Below the pieces are notes generated by a model, which saw only the letters and a list, made by a program, of their open reading frames with translations, was not told the origin of the DNA and did no database searches. Both the position numbers and the translations under genes were made by a program. A stretch of DNA of 64,000 nt from Aphelenchoides besseyi (lineage: Eukaryota; Nematoda; Chromadorea; Rhabditida; Aphelenchoididae), in the NCBI GenBank assembly GCA_024699855.1, contig JAMPIQ010000001.1, forward strand, positions 7,192,001 through 7,256,000. Reading direction: 5' to 3'. Positions 1 through 19,000 of the stretch are shown one piece after another (the stretch's first letter is position 1; each line of letters begins with the position of its first letter).

Positions 1-83
1 GGTAATTATTCGTGTTTGTAAAAGAAACCATAAAACAATAGACCGATGTCTATCCAACAATTCTAAAGATAATCGAAACTTAC

Positions 84-7900: not shown

Positions 7901-10900
7901 AACGGCAGCGATCTTCGGCTGAAAACCAATCATTTACGGCGTTTATTTGATGCTAATACCTGAGGTTCGTTCACAGCAAACTCCCGCTTTTTCTGCCAAG
8001 TGACAGTAGAATCCAGCACCGCAAACTGATTCGTCTTCGGGTGTACAAGTAATAATCGTATTGTCGGGTGAACGTGCCGCCACTCCAACCGCACAAGGAT
8101 TGATAAAGACATTCGAGCGTGGATCAGATGTTCCCGTTCCACATTCTTCCATACACTAAATAAAACAGTTGATATAAAGGAGACTGAAAGTGCACTGAAA
8201 TACCTGAATTTGAGTGATGAAGTTGTTCGAATTTCCTTTTAGTCCTTTGTACAAAAATCGTTTACACTGCGCGTCCAATGGATCGTAGAACCATCGTGGA
8301 ATCAAATCCGCTCCTTCACCCAATTCAACGGGCAAATCACATGGACGTCGAGCTGGAATCGCTAATCAATTACAAATACCGTAGACTTACTTCCAGGACA
8401 ACAAACGGTGGTCTTGGCCGGAGCTTTTGGCGCAGCCGTCTTCAACGTGGACGGAACCGAAGTTCGATCAGTCGGCTGTTCATAATCAACCCTGAATTTG
8501 CAAACTTGAATTAACATAATCAACCCTTCAATTTGCATATTTCAAAAGTTATATAAGAACAAGTTTTGCTCATTTTCTCCACTCGTTGGTCCTTTGCGTT
8601 GGACTTCTTGGTTCCCAATTCGCGATGCTCACTCTTCTTCATTCCGACGATTTTTCTGCGCACGGCTCTTTGTTCACAATCCCAATGAATTCGGGTACGG
8701 CGTTCCTCGACATCTACCAGAATGAGCTGACCGTCACTCACGCACCTACTCTTCATCAAACGTTTGTTTTACGTTCTTGTGTTTTTAAATCCTCCAATTT
8801 CAGAACATTTCAATTCGAGCCTGCTTCCTCATCAGATCACACTGGAGCCGAATTTCGACGAAACGTTGTCTTCAAGGTGTTCGTTTTCGATCGTCGTTTT
8901 ACGGAGGTTACGTTTTTGACCAAGAACGTGGAGAAGGCGTGATTCTGTTGTGGGAAGCGGAAAAGAAGATCTACCTGTCCAAAATGACGCTCGACTTCGA
9001 TCAACTTCGTTCGTTCGTTTGGAGTACCGAAGTCGCTGAAGTTGGAAACTTGGAAAGGGCTCATCTCGCTGCTACAAAACCAATGGTTGGAGTTGAGGAT
9101 ACATCGTTCTTGCTGATTGGTCTTCCACCATCAGATCGTTCGAGTTTCGCCGTCCATCTTCATGTCGCGGAACTCACAACGATGAAAGTTCAACTTGGAA
9201 AGGCTCTTGTTCAAGGTCGGTTCAACCATGAGTAACAGTTGTACTACAGACTGTTATTTCAGAAGGTTCAGATGTTGTCGACCGTATGAAATGGATTTGG
9301 ATGGATGGGAAACTCTTCGTCATCAACTCGATCGGTCCCCGTATTCGTGTCTCATCTTTGGAAATGTGCATTGAAGAAATGGATCTCATTGCCAATTCTA
9401 CTGCTCGAGTTTCTTCAACTATCCCACGCGTTCCATTGAAGTTCGAAAAGGAAATCAATTTCATGGAGGCGAGTTTTGCCCATGAGCAGGAACGACAATC
9501 CAACTTTTTTCAGCAATTCGATCTGATCCCGGAAACCGAAAACGTCACTCTGGAATGGAAGGCACTCGGCCGTGAAAGCAACCAAGCAGATGTCGTTTTG
9601 TTCGTTCATCTTCGTCATCTCTCGCTTCGTTATGTCTCAGTTCCCGGGCGATTACCGATTTTTGATCGTACTGGCCAGACAACATTCTTTTTGACTCGCC
9701 AACTTGAAATCGCCCACCGACATCAACTTCAACCCTACACGAATGCTCTGACTCCTTCTCAGGCGAACAGCTGGGTCAACGATCTCTCATTTCGTCGTTC
9801 CGACAGCACAGAGTTGGGAAATCAGTTTCTGTTCATTTTGCGCATTGAACTCCACCGCTTCTCTTCGTTCCATTACGTCTTTACAAGCGAACATGCCATC
9901 CTCGCGGTCAAAACTTTCTTGCAACGTGTTCCGAACGCCGTTCAAACCCGAGTCATTGGACAACTGCTCGATGGCGGGAACTTGGTGCTTTTCAGTTTCC
10001 CTCAAGCCGGTTCAATGGACGTCAAGGGAATGAAATTGAGGTTTGTCAACACTCATACATTGACCAATCATGTACTTCAGCTCTGCATTCCAACCAGTCC
10101 CGTTCGATCTTTCTCTCGCCGCCGCATACCGCATTGTGAATACCGATTCGTGGGCCCAAGCTCCGACGGTTCTGATCCAACGTTTTGGTCCAATCTAGTT
10201 TCCCCTTGTGTTCCACCATCAATTTTCCGTTCCCGATATTGCCGTTCGAATAAAAACCTTTCCGATTTTGCTTTTACTCGGTTGTTTTTCCGCAAAGAAA
10301 ACCTTCGAACGTATTGCCAACCGTTTCGTTAGGCGCGTGGTTGTAGGCCTCCGCGTGGTTGTTTACTCGACGCATTTCTCGGCCTTTTTTCCTCGACTCA
10401 TGAAAGATCCTCCACAACCTTTTTATCTCAATTTTTCAGGGTAATGGCCTCGAGGTCAATGGAAGATGCTCTTGCGGTGGCAATAACTCCGGAACAAGAT
10501 GTTCAGTTCGAATTGATGTGGAATAGCATCAACAAAGCCGATGATCAGATCGCTAAAGCTCATGTAAGTAGTTTAATCTATTATGTTTCTATGATGTTCA
10601 GGCATTGAGTATCATCGAGGCTCGCGGAATCACGGATAACGAAACAAAGGCGAAAATCTTCGAATTGGCTGATATTTACAAAACGAACAAACTGTCATTG
10701 CAAGGTTTCAAGATCGCGCAGGTATTCTGTGATCTGGCTAAATCCGACAAGCCACTGATTGAATACTTCCCGACGATCAAGACCGACTACCAATCTGCAA
10801 TCAAGGAATCTCCGAAACCAACGTCAGTGGCAATCAAACGTGGAATCTCGAACGAAGACGTTCATCCACTCAAACGACCACGACGAGCTCTTGAATCAGA

Positions 10901-13753
10901 CACCGATGTTCAGGTAAATAGGAATTAAAATTTACGTTTAAGTGTCCAATTGTAGGAAAATAACGCGATGGAGGACGTGTTTGCCAATCTCATGCGTGAC
11001 CAACTGCAGAGGAAATCAAAAGCCGAGCTGTAAGTTTATATGTTAAGCACATTCATATTAACATTTAACAGGATCGAACTGCTCATGAACCAACGACATC
11101 GCGAGAAGCCGAAAACTGTTAAACACATTACTGGATTTGATTTCGGTTAGTTTTTTTCAACGTCTGAAATACGCGATTTTTGCAGATAATCCCGAGGATA
11201 TTGGCGCGTGGTTCAACAAACTTCGATTGCAAGAAGATGAGCTTCAGTGGCGTGAGTTAACTAACAAATTTCACTGATTAATTATAAACTTCAGATCTCG
11301 ACTTCATCTTCAAACGATTGCTACGTTTAGACATGAAGCAGATTGGAGTCGTAATCTACTTGATTAATCGACTGCAAGAGATTATGCACACTTTTCCGAT
11401 CGGGCACGGGCTACATGGTTTGGAGCTTTCCTGGTGGATTCGGAACACTTTGCGGATTGCGCCGATGTTCACTACACCATTCGGTGAAAAGAACGGGATC
11501 CACGGACAGTGCTACGGTGTTCAAAATGGCAAACGACCATCGTTTAAATTCATCACTGAGTACAAGTAAGTAACTACCTCGAATAAACTCCGTACAAAAA
11601 ACTTTTAGCAATGAGAAACATATTCTCACCTCCAGACTCATTGCATACATGCTCTACGGTAACCCAGAGGATAATGAAATCACCGCGTCCCACCTCTGTG
11701 GAAACCGAGAATGCGTGTCTCCGAATCACATCATTTTTGAGCCATTGGACATCAACCGATCGCGTGACCGTTGCCACATGATTGACCTCCTGGAATTTTG
11801 CACGCATGAGCCCAAATGCTTGCATAGTAAGTCCGTTCTCAATATTCATTTAACTGTTGAATATAGGTACGAAGGCCATAAACGATGAAGAAACTGAAAT
11901 CATCAAAATTGTGTAAGTCTCCAATCACCAACAATTGCTAACAATTTTTATAGCCAATCAAGTGAAGCTGAATTCACCAAGAATAGATACGGAAAATCGT
12001 TTGCCAAAATTGATAACTACGTGTATGTGCAAGAAGTTATCTACAAGGATCGCTGGATTTGCGTCAACAGCGATGAACTCCTCTGCACCGCGAATTTAAC
12101 CATGGCCGGAAACGATCTCAATTTCCGCTGTGACAAGCATTCGCCAGATTGCGTTGCAGATTGGGACGCGCTTCAAAACACGTACGTATGCCTACATATT
12201 TCCATTTATTCCAAATTGTTTCAGGGAACTTATCGAATTCAACCCTGATGCGTACTTGTTTGAAACATTGGAACCACATCAAATTAACCGAAATTGTGAT
12301 GGAATCATTACCACCATCAAGCACGGAAGACACACGTATTACAATAAGAACACGGCCAAATTTTCATCGTATACTTATACTTGGATTTGCGGTAGACACT
12401 ACACTCAGGACTGTAACGCTCAAGCCTTCTTCCTTGAAGAACAGATGATGTTCTGTCTACTACGTGCGCCGCATACTTGCATCGCTCACGAAAACCGAAG
12501 CGAACAAGTCAGGAACCCATTTTACGTATTTGAGAGACATGGATTAGCGATACCAACGGACCAGTTCGAACGTTTACCGGAATCCGCCATTTCAAAAAGT
12601 ACTAAAGGACGCAAAGTCATCACTCTTAATGGTTACACTTACCTCGAACGAATCAAGTGCAGACGCAATTACGTTCGATTCATCTGCACTGTAAATCAGT
12701 GCGAAAGCCAAGTGTTCATCTCCAAAGACTTTCAATATTACGAATTTAGCCCAAAAGTTCCTCATAATCACTAATTTCATATCTCATTGACTTCGAGTGC
12801 CATTCATAATCCTGCATTTACATTTCTCGTTAAATTGCCGGTTACTTCTCGTTGTACAGTTTTCTCTCATTAAGTTGCCAATTATTTCTCATTGCTCACT
12901 TATTTCTCAATGTCCAGTTATTCCACATTAAGCTTTGATTTTTCGGTTCATGCAAATCCATTACGTGGTAATCCACAAATAAACATGACTTAACCACAAA
13001 CTTACGTGACATGTTTCCTTGTTAGATTTGTAGTTTGTGGGGTTTCACTTACGTGGCACCTTAAAAAATAACTCATTGCTATAAAACGCCTTTTATCACC
13101 AGTAATCCTCTGGACATCCTCCATTTGGTCGAACGACAAAATTGCAAGTCATTGCATTGTCGAACTCATTCATTAATGGTTTTCCTTCCGGACACGGATT
13201 AATGACTCCTGAAATACAAATACTGAATTCGGTTTTAGTCGATTGAACTTACGATTTGAGCCAACAGTCGGATAGTCGATCTCTGGTTTTTTCGACGGAC
13301 GAAGAAAATTGTTTGAAGTAGAAGATTGGTGAATTGCCGGAGGATAAGTTCCAGTATAAGGAGCTGGAGTTGGCAATTCAGTTGTTGTAGTGGTCGGCGT
13401 TGTAGTAATGTAAATTGGCAACGATTTGGTCGAATAGGGAACAATTGGTTTTGGCTCGGGCATCGGTTTAAACTTTCCACTCATTCCATTGATATTCGGT
13501 TTGTATGGAACTCGGACGTCTGAAAATTACCGTTGAGAAGAGCTCATTGATGCATTCTTTTACTCATTGGCATTGGTCGATAAGTCCAACGATATCTGGT
13601 CTGCGGGATACATCGACTTTGACAGTTTGTTCGAACCGGATAATACAATTGACGTTGCTTTTGAGGATACGGATAGTAGTAGTAATACTGAAGTTGTTGC
13701 GCGACTACCAGAGGGAAAGCAAAAGAACACAAGATAAACCACGAAAGGTTCAT
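4906..13753 (-). CDS. secreted lustrin/Kunitz multidomain protein (1066 aa, 24 exons)
   Basis: Exons run from 13753 (ATG) to the TAA at 4906-4908 and sum to 3201 nt in one frame. Order: signal peptide (MNLSWFILCSFAFPLVVA), Tyr-rich segment, Pro/Thr-rich linker, then lustrin-type cysteine modules (NPC...CHV...CCPG) alternating with eight Kunitz domains. Kunitz 1-7 have the form PCDLPVELGEG...NNF...C but lack the C14-C38 cysteine pair. Only Kunitz 8 (FCTQPRDPGNCNK...SGCGG) has all six cysteines, with Asn at the expected P1 position. Nematodes encode many such proteins, secreted to extracellular matrix or cuticle; protease inhibition is doubtful for domains 1-7. Introns are 35-60 bp except 6230-6470 (241 bp) and 8492-13005 (4514 bp), which contains two plus-strand genes. 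The exon at 6565-6678 would use a TG acceptor. AATAAA overlaps the stop. Confidence 0.8.
8625..10198 (+). CDS. unrecognised 470-aa protein nested in the Kunitz-gene intron
   Basis: Four exons, 8625-8761, 8836-9215, 9263-10040 and 10081-10198, give 471 codons in one frame. AATAAA follows at 10249. No signal peptide is visible. Segments such as YGGYVFDQERGEGVILLWEA and WMDGKLFVINSIGPRIRVSS recall blades of YWTD-type propellers. Later stretches (ENVTLEWKAL, QLQPYTNALTP, AAYRIVNTDSWAQAPTVLIQ) recall fibronectin type III strands, as in Sevenless/ROS-type receptors. The resemblance is weak and I assign no function. The first intron (8762-8835) is placed so that the frame continues into the long downstream exon and is the least certain part. 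The gene lies wholly inside intron 8492-13005 of the opposite-strand Kunitz gene, directly upstream of the nuclease gene. Confidence 0.45.
10444..12774 (+). CDS. EH-like domain + I-PpoI-type His-Me finger nuclease + FLYWCH-like zinc fingers (652 aa)
   Basis: Ten exons (10444-10563, 10602-10913, 10956-11029, 11072-11145, 11186-11251, 11295-11565, 11609-11826, 11867-11912, 11954-12181, 12225-12774) sum to 1959 nt, one frame. Residues about 20-85 are EH-like (AKIFELADIYKTNKLSLQGF, degenerate calcium loop). Residues 333-376 match the zinc-binding loop region of homing endonucleases (zf-His_Me_endon). His334 corresponds to the general base and Asn355 to the metal ligand of I-PpoI. Cys336, Cys341, His346, Cys361 and Cys370, Cys376, His372 fit its two zinc sites, with spacings matching except one 2-residue insertion. 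Arg296 lies about where I-PpoI has Arg61. Three FLYWCH-like fingers follow (about 403-455, 487-548, 590-652, the last ending HNH). TTTTTCAG precedes the start. Activity and mobility are unproven; it could be domesticated. Confidence 0.8.
12825..12940. repeat. degenerate tandem repeat, about 40-bp period
   Basis: Copies at 12825-12854 and 12865-12894 fit one 30-bp consensus with TTGCC and TTCTC blocks. All observed differences between them are transitions. A third, partial copy follows to about 12940. The repeat sits between the nuclease stop codon and the 5' side of the host intron. Confidence 0.45.
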
Positions 13754-14350
13754 GTCCAGTTGTTAACTAAACGTACGAACGAATTATAAGGTAACGTTGC
13801 GATATCGTCAATACGTGCGCAGATCTCGGCATAAACAAAAACTTCTTTCGAAAAACGATCGGAAATGAAATGACCGTTTTAGTTCATATTCTGAAAACCG
13901 AACTTTTTGTCTCTAACCCGCAATTTCATTGCGCAATTTGAGAAACAAAATCGTCTCGATCGTCTTGAGTTCGTTGGTGTGCGTGACGTGGGTCAAAGGG
14001 CGTGACGGAGCAGATGAGCTCTTCATTGCTTCCGCACTCAATTTTTCGGTTTTTCCCATTCTTTTGTTTCATCGGTCATTTTTTGTTGTTTGTCCATCTC
14101 ATTAGCTTATACGAAAAGCTTAGTCACTGCTTTTCGATTGCTCGAGGGTCATTTTTATTGTGCGCTACCGAATTACGTGCTTTGCTTTTTGTATCACCGT
14201 TCCGTTGGATTGACCCGTGACCGAGAGATTTCGGTTTGACTCATCGAATGCGGAAGTAATCAATTCGAGGTTTTCAGATTCAATTCGACGCGTCGTTTAT
14301 TATAACTTACAGTAATGGAAGCTCTTCTACTTACAACAAGAATTCTAACT
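13754..14350. other. intergenic between the Kunitz gene start and the MPI 3' end
   Basis: This stretch holds the presumed promoter of the Kunitz gene (start 13753, minus) and, on the minus strand, the MPI 3' UTR. An AATAAA lies at about 14296-14301 on the minus strand. The 72-codon plus ORF here looks accidental. Confidence 0.45.
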
Positions 14351-15786
14351 TCAATGGGGCAGCGGAGTAAAAGCCCGATAACAACAGAAATCGTCAGTTG
14401 GGTTCGAAACTTGAATCGATTTTACAGTCGCCGGAATAAACACAATGTCTCCCGCTTTCAACTGCTGTTTCTGGCCACTATCTGCAGTTAAATCGACTTT
14501 TCCAACGATCACGATTAAAATTGCACTTGAATGAGTTGAAGGAAGATTGTTCGCCGAACTCTGAAAACTTTGAAAGTCAACAAAGGTAATTGATTGTCAT
14601 TACCGTGATTTTTTGGACTGCAAACTCGGGAACTGGCGGTGCATATTCAATGATACCAGTGGCCACTTCTTTCGGTTTGAAATACGGAGGTTCAATCATT
14701 CGAAATGTAAGTGAATTGCACAAAGTCTCAACATCTTTGAATTTTGGTGTTAAACCTGCGCGAATTGTATTGTCCGAGCAGGCCATGCATTCAACACAAT
14801 CTAAACGTAGTTGCTGGTTAGAAGCTTAATCGTTGAATGACCTCCGAATAAGTAAGCATGCGGTTCGTTCGGTCCAAGAAACGTTGATTCGCCTTCTTTC
14901 AAAGAAAAGTAGTTCAGAAAAATCGGTGCCAAAACCCCAACATCACCACCCGGATATTGACTATTCAAACGTAGAATCAACGAATGAAGATCGGTTTTTT
15001 CTTTGACTAAATCAAAGTTGAGCTGATTCTTTGCAGCCACGTACTCACCATCCTGAAGACGCTTAACAAGATCGCCAATTGCCGATGCGATCTTCTCTTG
15101 CGGTGATTTCCATATCGACGAAAATATCAAACTAAGTGTTTTCTTCTGAGCTTCTTCATCCTCCGAATGAGTTAAATCGGCAAGTAACTCGTCATCAAAA
15201 AGACTAGCAACTTCCATGTGCTCTGAAACATTCTGAGTTTTTGTCCGTGCAACTTCTCCCACCTTTGATGTGCCAAAGAAGATCTTTTGGTTGACGAAAT
15301 CCGCATAACAACTCAAAATTCGTAAGAGCAATAGCAATCTCCGGTTTGTGACGCGGATCGGGGTAATTCTTTGGGTCTTTTTGGTGCAAAATACGTGCTT
15401 GTGCCTTAAGATTTCGTTGCAACGAACTTAACATTCCAGTTGCTCACATTCGTCGGATGAACTTGAACGGAAAGTGCTTTTCCAACGGATAAAATTTTGA
15501 ACAGAAACTGAAGAGTTCCATCTTCGTGAAGAGCCAAGACTTCAGGATGTTGTTTGATGTATTCTTCTAAGGTTGTTTGCTCTGCTTCCAAACTTGCCAT
15601 TCCATTCGGATGTACACCCATCCATAGCTGAAAGTAAGTGGCAATTTAAAGTTCGACAGTTTTTGTACCAACTTCAGCATACGCTTTGTTTTCGTCGATT
15701 ACTTCGCCATTTAAACGAGCCACCGTGCTCTCCGTTCCCTTCTTCCCCCATTCGTAGTTTTGAACTTTGCACTTTAATTTCAACAT
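14351..15786 (-). CDS. MPI: mannose-6-phosphate isomerase (407 aa)
   Basis: Six exons (15673-15786, 15448-15627, 15263-15404, 14842-15222, 14604-14800, 14351-14560) total 1224 nt in one frame. The protein starts [14 protein letters not shown] and carries [27 protein letters not shown] and [20 protein letters not shown], all hallmark blocks of type I phosphomannose isomerase. The zinc-binding Gln and His of QVHP and the Glu and His around EPHAYL are present. The enzyme interconverts fructose-6-P and mannose-6-P in the cytosol, feeding GDP-mannose for glycosylation. Length is close to the roughly 420 aa of animal orthologues. Introns are 43-52 bp, all GT-AG. An AATAAA follows the stop on the minus strand. 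Confidence 0.95.
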
Positions 15787-16084
15787 TGTAATCTTAACCG
15801 TTACTATAGATGATGGCTGACGCTCATAGAGCTAAGATAATTGTAAACGGTTCCACAAACCATAAGATCAAGTTGCTTATTTCTATTAAGTCAAATTTAT
15901 TTGTTAACGGAATTAAAACCAATCGACTAGTAAGCTGCAATTAAGTTGAAAATAGTCCTTGAGTTGTTAAAAAGCATCAGGCAGTTCGTAGAAAAAACAA
16001 TGAGATTCGGATAAGAAGAAGAATTGAAAGAACAAAAAATATCCCTGAGTTTTAATTAAAAGTTAAGTTAATAAGCTCTTTCCG
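15787..16084. other. intergenic between MPI and KDM1B
   Basis: About 300 bp of AT-rich sequence: the MPI promoter region and the KDM1B 3' UTR. No gene was seen. Confidence 0.4.
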
Positions 16085-19000
16085 TCAAATAGCCGAATTC
16101 TCCAACATCCACGCTTCAGACATTCTGCTCGATTCGCGTAGACCACTGACATAGGCTCCGGTCATTGTTTGTGGAAACCAACGACTGGTGGCTTCTCCGG
16201 CGAAATAAATCCGATTTTGAACGGGCTCAGCCATCAAATCGTAATGATCGCCACTTGCACCGACCTTCACATACGAGTACGACATTCCAATGTTTGGATC
16301 ACGACCCCAATGCGTCACAACATGACCAACAGGTTCGGGAATTTTCTAAAAAAAAATCAACGTTATCAAAAGTTCGACACAAACTTCGTTGGGAAAAAGG
16401 TCTCTCAGTGCGTCCACGAATAATCCAACAACTTCCACGTCGGTGTGTTTGTTTACAATTTCCACCGAATCGCCACAAACGTACGACATGAGAACGTAGG
16501 TTTGATTGCTGTCATCCCGAGTCGAGAAATCGTAAAACATATTGAACAACCCACGGCCCTTCTCGTTCTTTGGCACATGACCGAAATAATCCAAAGTCCC
16601 GTCCTTCTTCAAGAGTGACGACCAGAAACGAGTGGGAAATCGAACGGCAACTTTCTCGATGAGTCCAGCACCAAGACCTTTGATTCCTTTGAGCTTTGAC
16701 GGCGGCAACGGCGGATTAAATCTTACAGTTTCTTTGTGGTACATTGCTAGCGGAATACACATGAGTATCTTGTCGCAATAGAATTTCTTTCCATTTTTGC
16801 AGTAAACAACTGGTTTTCTCTTAGATCCATAATCGACTCGCTCAACCACGTGCTTGAAGCGGATATCCAAATCTTCAGCTAAATTTTGAATGATTTTTGA
16901 CGACCCATCACATAAGATGGCGTGATCGCCGGCGAATTGTCCGATCGCTTCGTTCTGATCCCAATTACGACAAGAAACATCGGAAAGTCGTGATCCGCAC
17001 GAAAACTCGACGTTTCCAATTTGCCATTGTAGAATTCGCTCATAATTTTCGGACCACGGGAAGTCCAAGGATTCCGTAAACTTCTTATGAAATGTGTTGA
17101 TTTTCTCTAAAATTACCACTTATGAAATAAAACTGTTAGCTAAACAAACCCAATAAACTCGAATCTGTTCCTTTGGTTATTTTACGCCATTGGTTGATAG
17201 CATCCAGAACACAATTGAAATGCTCATCGACAACCCGATCAGCTGATGGCGATATAACTCGTCCACAAGATGCGTCGACTAATGGACATTCGTCTGTCAA
17301 CTTTCTAGAAACAAACAAATATTGGAATATGAATGATCGAAATATTACCTGTAATTCAAACCAACTTGATGGCACATTAAAATAAGCGGCGAGTTGATTA
17401 CTCCCGTTACCAACTGAGCACCACATCCGACGGCAACTTTAAGCGAATGATCGTCTTTCATTCGACCACCGCAACGTTCCGTAGCTTCCAATACCGTTAC
17501 TTTAGCGCCGTTCAATGTCAATTGCCGGGCCGCAGTCAATCCACTAAAACGTCATATCAATCGATATTCAGGATAATTAATAGCAAACCTGATTCCAGCG
17601 CCAACAACCACAACCTCCAGTGTATGCTATAATTTAAAACATAAAGGACAATATGTGTATAGCAGTCTTACTTTTCGGACTCTTTCCTTGAGTATTTTAC
17701 GTGCTGGAAATGGAACAACACCGTAATTGATTATGTTTTTTAAACACAAAAAGTCGTATACACGTTGCAACTGTGTAGCGTACCAAACACGAGCCAAACC
17801 GCGACAAATCAGATGTGCCAAGCACTTTTCGAATGCCAAATATTCCTTTAAAGTACCGAGTAAAATGTGTAAAATTGAATAAACATACAAATGGATTCAG
17901 AGTCCATAAAGCGACACACAAATTTCGCATAGCGAAATAAGGAACTGGTTCATTCGAAAACTCTGGAAACGCCTCCAGCTCGTCGTATTCCAAGCCATCG
18001 GGTCGAACACAAAACGCGATTGATGCGCCATTTGGAATGTTAAACGGAATCATAAACGTTGCTGCTTTGGCATCTGCACTTTGGAACAACAGTTAATTAT
18101 TAATTTTTGTTGTACTAACCGGGAGTCTTGGCAGATGCCGAGCGAGTTGGACTCATTCCCAATTCATCGCAGAAATATTCTTCTTTCAGATAATAAAGAG
18201 CCGGTGAGTTGTGAAGAAATGTTGGAGCACTTGCTGTTTGAATCCAAGACAAATCTCGTGCGACATTCACTTTCTAAACGCAGCTGTAAATTAGGAGTTG
18301 TTAATCGATTGACCACCTTGTTTTCCGGCTCTTCACACGCATCCTCCCGATTGTACAGTTGATCACAAGTAAACCCGGCAATCGTTTCTTCATTCCATTG
18401 ATTCTCGTCGGCCGAACACTTTCGGAATTTGTTACAGCGATTGCACGAGATCCAAAATGGCAAAAGTTCGTCCAAAACAAAAAGCCGCAAACTCGGAGCA
18501 CAACGACTGTCTTGTACCCACTTGTTCTTCCACGCGTTGTAGACGTTGAACTTACTTCGTCCACTAAAATGAAAACCTATCAACATTGTTGATATGATGC
18601 TTACACTCGTGCCATTTCTTCATAACAAAAATAACAAATGTGTTCCGTAGATGACAAATGGAAATAATTAGATCGTCCTTGTCGTCCATTCGGATCCGAA
18701 ACACACATGCTCGTGAACTGTCCGGAACACTCGGTATCCGATGAGCATTCACTTTTCTCACATGAACCTTCTCGTGATTCTCCGGATCCATTTTCGATTA
18801 TTTGCTAAACAGTCGATTAAACAGTCCACGTGGTCGACACTCACCAGTTCGACTCGTTTTCGTTTTACAACCACATCTTCCGTTGCAACGATAGCTTGTC
18901 TTTTAGCGGACCGAAGTTCACGAGTCACCGGAATTTCGGATTCACTCGACGATTCCGCCGATTCAATCGCATCCAAACGTCCATCGGTTCCATTTTGCGA

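Follow-up and report, generated by a model that had tools for sequence, protein, structure and literature searches.

An I-PpoI-type nuclease core joined to FLYWCH-type fingers in a spliced gene of Aphelenchoides besseyi and its multigene family

INTRODUCTION

Fungal and protist group I introns harbour nucleases of the His-Cys-box type. An animal precedent for their domestication is the SMAD MH1 domain, which binds DNA and has been proposed to descend from a His-Me nuclease with loss of catalysis. The FLYWCH domain is a DNA-binding finger that is reportedly found in Tm1, a Mutator-like element of root-knot nematodes. We have analysed a gene of the rice-parasitic nematode Aphelenchoides besseyi that brings these two types of domain together. 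It lies in a window of 64,000 nucleotides, the whole stretch of DNA considered here (contig JAMPIQ010000001.1, positions 7,192,001 to 7,256,000 of the forward strand), and all positions given without a contig or locus handle refer to this window. A preceding sequence-only reading of the same DNA had proposed a gene product combining an I-PpoI-like nuclease core with EH-like and FLYWCH-like domains.

Two further known systems are comparable to this gene. In KolobokP, long terminal direct repeats enclose an I-PpoI-like His-Me nuclease together with a neighbouring DDD/E transposase; this transposon has been reported from seven animal phyla, Nematoda not being among them (PMC9587614). Open reading frames (ORFs) with the PF05551 domain have been described, in the part of the source considered here, on the extrachromosomal rDNA plasmids of the protist Naegleria, where orf566 carries two copies of the domain (PMC12482156).

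RESULTS

The gene extends from 10444 to 12774 on the forward strand, and its ten-exon model encodes a 652-amino-acid protein. The translation was identical across its whole length to the NCBI entry 'hypothetical protein M3Y96_00208100 [Aphelenchoides besseyi]', and all nine introns were of the GT-AG type, with a length of 38-43 nt. This confirmed the exon count, intron count and product size that had been proposed. The interval originally assigned to the gene, 11295-12774, holds for exons 6-10; it leaves out the start of the gene at 10444 and, with it, the EH-like region (about 10480-10781).

The central part of the protein matched the Pfam family zf-His_Me_endon (PF05551) over residues 327-386 (51.3 bits, E 1.8e-13, cut-off 27). 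When the single sequence was searched against the PDB at E<=1, the five matches obtained were all I-PpoI, the best one with E 3.8e-5 over residues 298-378, and a profile built from 13 cores of the family retrieved only I-PpoI (E 8e-10). In the first half of the motif, H334, C336, C341, H346, E350 and N355 corresponded to I-PpoI H98, C100, C105, H110, E114 and N119; in the second half, R358, C361, C370, H372 and C376 corresponded to R122, C125, C132, H134 and C138. Apart from a two-residue insertion between C361 and C370, the I-PpoI spacing was kept. There are eight candidate zinc ligands in two sites, seven of which aligned directly to I-PpoI in the PDB match; the remaining one, C288, is likely the counterpart of Cys41, as judged from the paralogue alignment. 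The hallmarks noticed between residues 333 and 376 (His334, Asn355, seven zinc ligands and the two-residue insertion) were confirmed. A weak Pfam HNH_3 match to the protein was also seen (E 0.051), and an NCBIfam search of it gave no match.

Three stretches within residues 394-652 reached E<=1 with the Pfam FLYWCH model, the most C-terminal of them (finger 3, residues 593-652) exceeding the family cut-off. Hence, the fusion of the nuclease core to FLYWCH sequences holds for at least one finger. We have also scored the three stretches with a profile of six paralogous repeats, none taken from the window gene, using 200 shuffles of each stretch as control. Finger 3 scored 36.6-38 bits (shuffle maximum 10.9) and finger 2 scored 20-26 bits (shuffle maximum 7.8), while the 3.4 bits of finger 1 fell inside the range of its 200 shuffles (maximum 7.9). 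The FLYWCH of a nearby element resembling Mutator-like elements (MULEs) reached 4.2 bits and did not exceed its own shuffles, so the profile marks this type of repeat and not FLYWCH at large. From these profiles, finger 3 is firm and finger 2 supported, finger 1 being unproven. The MULE-like element, whose ends are inverted and of the CCCCGCCGATTCATCCCCG type, was observed beside the nuclease loci L010, L024 and L031, and abuts a nuclease exon in L024. An origin of the fingers from such FLYWCH elements was considered and rejected: the FLYWCH at these three loci belongs to the inserted element and not to the window gene.

The N-terminus is more ambiguous. With Pfam EH, residues 14-102 scored 13.1 bits (E 0.094, cut-off 22), and EH was the sole family listed up to E 10; when residues 1-111 were searched at E<=1, DUF6955 (E 0.028) was obtained and EH was not among the matches. 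The best PDB match of residues 14-102 was the EH domain of intersectin-1 (E 0.17), followed by a ribosomal protein (E 0.4). Typical EH domains grip NPF peptides through a Trp; here the corresponding position is a Phe, the protein reading IFELAD where intersectin has IWNLSD. The search for EH in the A. besseyi genome itself (E<=10) gave 10 matches, with nine candidates scored, and the N-terminus of the window protein was not among them. The EH identity proposed by the sequence-only reading is therefore only suggestive, with a weak similarity to EH and intersectin-1 on the one hand, and a score below the Pfam cut-off and a replaced pocket Trp on the other; from these matches we consider it plausible but unproven. 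The basic stretch that follows (residues 118-136) is a possible nuclear localisation signal, as judged by eye. A second EH-like stretch was seen at C1:5002119 (L035, C1:4999500-5005500), where the 6 kb inspected revealed no nuclease.

The gene belongs to a multigene family that had at first been overlooked. At E<=1e-3, PF05551 gave 32 matches at 27 loci of the A. besseyi genome, window included, and 30 of the 32 were above the family cut-off. The original observation on the sequence was right, and its interest is greater as a family. The motif residues were widely kept in the 31 matches outside the window (H98 in 31, E114 and N119 in 28 each, R122 in 29), as were the zinc ligands (C100 in 31, C105 in 30, H110 in 28, C125 in 26); these figures are biased upward because the copies were picked by motif, and for H98 and C100 the count was predetermined, the pattern used for placing the motif already containing those residues. 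One of the misses, at L028, corresponds to a two-residue insertion that shifts the count.

Five loci had two PF05551 matches each. At L009 (C1:12.13M), L017 (C5:43k) and L012 (C2:15.52M) a second core follows the first, perhaps within one gene, and tandem cores are deduced for L013 (C2:15.44M) from its 99% identity to L012. If encoded as one protein, such tandem cores could form a one-chain nuclease pair. Several members are predicted by gene finding to carry differing tails. The near-identical loci L019 (C1:5.08M) and L021 (C1:5.50M) differ in their number of finger-like tail units of about 560 bp (one versus three). These tail repeats had no Pfam FLYWCH match and scored 9.0 bits with the paralogous-repeat profile, against a maximum of 4.8 in 200 shuffles; the NCBI model P0002 ends ahead of them.

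The order pre-domain, nuclease and finger repeat on one strand was common to the window gene and to L030, L033 and L037, and the window gene was the sole intact reading among these four. L037 (C3:4230000-4237000, minus strand) was located through its other domains and not through the nuclease motif; its core scored 8.4 bits, versus a maximum of 1.3 in 120 shuffled one-frame translations. A search with the N-terminus gave no match at L030, L033 or L037. Window-type finger repeats were also seen at L036 (C3:4689500-4697000) and L048 (C2:3175800-3181300), where the stretches inspected revealed no nuclease. Protein searches for relatives in other nematodes, made with an insensitive word filter (two candidates in one of the searches), yielded nothing beyond the A. 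besseyi protein and its paralogue P0002. A prokaryotic source was rejected after a scan of genome contigs in which none of six pattern matches was confirmed, and a viral source after confirmation of one of nine, a phage HNH gene (L047).

We have looked for signs of mobility. Between 8000 and 14500, around the window gene, neither inverted repeats longer than 27 nt nor long terminal repeats were found. The genome contained no near-identical copy of the gene, the best other match having 46 bits. No group I intron was detected at 8000-16500, nor genome-wide among the 26 scored of 3,469 candidates. None of the matches listed for PF04500, PF10551 (MULE), PF00078 (RVT_1) and PF13358 (DDE_3) fell within 5 kb of the window gene. 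For the family, six of the 27 loci had a transposon-type match within 5 kb, versus 1.8 expected (P about 0.007, with near matches picked by eye).

Dispersed copies lacking terminal repeats were seen in the family, for example about 1.35 kb at 96% identity in L015 (C3) and L018 (C2), and 2.7 kb at 99% identity in L012 and L013 (both on C2). The idea that the family is a transposon was rejected, with the edges of L012/L013, L015/L018, L019/L021 and L009/L017 lacking visible inverted ends or target duplication; edges were judged by eye, and inverted repeats were searched in three of the eight loci. The 99% copy stops just past a CGGATCT-AG-AGATCCG inverted repeat (about 3924-3939 in L012 and 4259-4274 in L013), which in its sequence appears somewhat like a Helitron end hairpin.

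Selection was assessed through the ratio of nonsynonymous to synonymous substitution rates (dN/dS), using Nei-Gojobori counts and bootstrap intervals in nine comparisons between paralogues, some of them overlapping. Five of the nine gave 0.12-0.48 with intervals below 1, one had an interval spanning 1, and three were above 1. The two lowest ratios came from cores A (0.15; 0.05-0.32; 476 of 500 bootstraps usable) and B (0.12; 0.04-0.28; 376 of 500 usable) of L009/L012, with dS values of 1.3 and 1.7, respectively, which are near saturation. The region ahead of core B in the same pair had a ratio of 0.48 (0.25-0.87), L010/L026 had 0.29 (0.10-0.90), and the linker plus core B of L009/L017 had 0.42 (0.26-0.70). 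A dN/dS below 1 holds for the more divergent paralogue pairs.

The features of the gene are collected in Table 1. The sequence upstream of the ATG likely provides a spliced-leader acceptor or the 3' end of an intron in the 5' untranslated region. A same-strand gene is predicted upstream at about 8685-10330, with its end at about 10200-10330 and an AATAAA at 10249. Judging by this arrangement, the two genes would form an ordinary-looking nematode gene row, perhaps an operon.

Table 1. Positions of the window gene and of its features (window coordinates)
Feature	Residues	Position	Strand	Basis or remark
TTTTTCAG acceptor		10432..10439	+	4 nt upstream of ATG; read from sequence
Coding exons 1-5		10444-10563, 10602-10913, 10956-11029, 11072-11145, 11186-11251	+	
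Coding exons 6-10		11295-11565, 11609-11826, 11867-11912, 11954-12181, 12225-12774	+	
EH-like N-terminal region (exons 1-2)	13-100	10480..10781	+	Sub-threshold matches
Bipartite-type basic stretch (IKRG...LKRPRRA)	118-136	10833..10889	+	By eye
Pre-core region	213-300	11242..11548	+	Matches at L030, L024, L033, L037
I-PpoI-type His-Cys-box core	288-386	11510..11889	+	Pfam, PDB I-PpoI, paralogue conservation
Key residues of the core	C288, H334, C336, C341, H346, E350, N355, R358, C361, C370, H372, C376			
His334 codon (= I-PpoI His98, general base)	334	11691..11693	+	Sequence
Asn355 codon (= I-PpoI Asn119, metal ligand)	355	11754..11756	+	Sequence
Possible FLYWCH-type finger 1 (W-I-C...C...H...C)	405-462	11985..12158	+	By eye, without profile support
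FLYWCH-type finger 2	495-556	12298..12483	+	Paralogous-repeat profile
FLYWCH finger 3	593-652	12592..12771	+	Pfam 27 bits, cut-off 23.6
AATAAA, candidate polyadenylation signal		12978..12983	+	Sequence

DISCUSSION

The window gene combines a His-Cys-box motif with at least one FLYWCH finger. Its product is likely, with a probability of roughly 0.55, to be a resident enzyme of the nucleus whose fingers would select where DNA is cut. The sequence-only reading had left the choice between a mobile nuclease and a domesticated protein. A resident or domesticated gene is the better fit, because neither long terminal repeats nor a near-identical copy were found, the gene has ten exons, and for four transposon-type domains none of the matches listed fell within 5 kb; a selfish homing gene stays the main rival.

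By analogy with the I-PpoI mechanism, His334 would act as the general base and Asn355 would hold one Mg2+, while two zinc ions would fix the fold through C288/C336/C341/H346 and C361/C370/H372/C376. Both strands would be cut by a dimer or by a tandem pair of cores. The C-terminal fingers may set or widen the contact with DNA, the basic stretch near residue 130 would mediate nuclear import, and the EH-like N-terminus might serve as a protein-binding arm. As for its history, a homing-type nuclease ancestor may have become a spliced chromosomal gene, which would then have multiplied into a birth-and-death family whose members exchanged tails. A role in conflict with selfish or foreign DNA would be expected to leave such a pattern, and fast turnover is our best reading of the family.

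Several observations weigh against a resident DNA-cutting enzyme. In the core, I-PpoI Arg61 aligned to S298 and has no clear counterpart, with the adjacent Arg/Lys residues being ambiguous, and the AlphaFold2 model built from two sequences had a mean predicted local distance difference test score (pLDDT) of 31. The upward bias of the retention figures belongs here as well. The dN/dS values speak for the paralogues only, because no pair includes the window gene. Core B of L009/L017 taken alone gave 0.35 with an interval including 1 (0.06-1.19), and the ratios above 1 were those of L019/L021 (1.68; 0.68-7.18; 327 codons with 2.3 silent changes), of the pre-domain-plus-nuclease part of the same pair (2.62; 1.19-7.26; 163 codons with 1.3 silent changes) and of L015/L018 (5.09; 1.82-9.03; 0.5 silent change). 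We make no claim of positive selection in these young pairs because their silent changes are too few, and the purifying signal is absent in them. Among the closest relatives, L030, L033 and L037 appear broken by stops or frame changes, L030 least surely, and in L037 a Tyr replaces both His98 and Asn119. Free loss of these residues in homologues had been named in advance as contradicting a selected nuclease; the outcome was mixed, with one relative having lost both, yet in a frame that looks broken. The absence of the gene's surroundings from the lists of transposon domains is weak evidence, because the window's own finger was not among the 17 matches listed in the own-genome FLYWCH search. Lastly, the six loci near transposon-type matches, versus 1.8 expected, tilt the reading of the whole family towards mobility.

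The last point would also suit a selfish, free-standing homing-nuclease gene, which would cut chromosomes lacking it and be copied in by repair, with the fingers aiming at its own insertion site. The homing-nuclease type of the core, the dispersed copies without terminal repeats (L015/L018 and L012/L013) and the decayed look of some relatives are all consistent with such a gene. However, the best other match to the window gene has just 46 bits, the inspected copy edges share no target sequence or repeat, and ten exons in an ordinary-looking gene row do not resemble a compact mobile unit, so that we regard this explanation as unlikely. We find it very improbable that the protein only binds DNA, having kept the nuclease fold and lost cutting as proposed for SMAD MH1. 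The FLYWCH domain being a known DNA-binding finger, the unmatched Arg61 and the lost active site of L037 would agree with it, but His334, Asn355 and the eight candidate zinc ligands are kept here, and the greater part of the family retains most of these residues. An equally slim chance is given to the gene model being a composite, exons 1-2 with the EH-like region forming a small gene of their own and the gene for the nuclease and FLYWCH parts beginning at the in-frame Met of exon 3. This would account for the EH-like stretch of L035 without a detectable nuclease beside it and for the lack of N-terminal matches at L030, L033 and L037; on the other side, exons 2 and 3 are separated by 42 nt of GT-AG type, resembling the remaining eight introns, and the NCBI model joins the two exons.

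Beyond the resident enzyme proposed here, one can envisage that an intron-type homing nuclease was converted in the nematode to a family of chromosomal 'natural zinc-finger nucleases', with one core, swapped DNA-reading tails and some two-core members, which would make programmed sequence-specific breaks in own or invading DNA, in genome defence or programmed DNA elimination. We hold this wider proposal to be a long shot. A spliced animal gene with active-site residues and its own fingers, in a 27-locus family, would be a natural counterpart of the engineered zinc-finger nucleases, and the family would be a test case for a selfish nuclease becoming a host tool. We know of no site-specific nuclease assigned to programmed DNA elimination in nematodes. 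The family offers a concrete nuclease class to examine in that respect, the link being hypothetical.

The claim that no protein with this architecture had been described agrees with our literature search for nuclease plus FLYWCH in nematodes, which found nothing fitting within its partial coverage of titles and abstract beginnings; the single paper retrieved that mentions PF05551 by name is the one on Naegleria rDNA plasmids (PMC12482156). Regarding the fingers, those of the window gene are of the Pfam PF04500 type, like the Tm1-type FLYWCH; of the 17 FLYWCH matches listed for this genome, at least four belong to transposon-like elements whose ends are inverted (L010, L024 and L031), and the window gene is not such an element. 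Among the nuclease systems, the window core keeps H98, H110, N119, S97 and E114, all named as conserved in KolobokP in the part of the report considered (PMC9587614). Unlike KolobokP, no long terminal repeats or transposase were found at the window gene, the Kolobok transposase family itself having been outside the search. The two-core loci of A. besseyi resemble Naegleria orf566; unlike the window protein, the Naegleria PF05551 ORFs are not associated with FLYWCH in the part of the source considered (PMC12482156).

The HNH nuclease of a phage contig (IMG/VR, L047) shares the ASHLCGNxxCVNPxHIxxE...N motif, but it is a 137-amino-acid ORF whose second Cys/His cluster is, by eye, patterned otherwise; this phage gene (L047, 1884-2297) adjoins a DNA polymerase gene. 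In contrast with the homing nucleases of group I introns, the window core is encoded in spliceosomal exons, with no group I intron found within the scope given above. With I-PpoI of Physarum polycephalum it shares both catalytic residues (His and Asn), seven zinc ligands in alignment and probably an eighth (C288), and Ser97, Glu114 and Arg122 in register. Whereas I-PpoI is an intron product (163 residues in the PDB chain), the core is here contained in a 652-amino-acid spliced gene product with fingers, and, unlike SMAD MH1, the window protein retains its catalytic residues.

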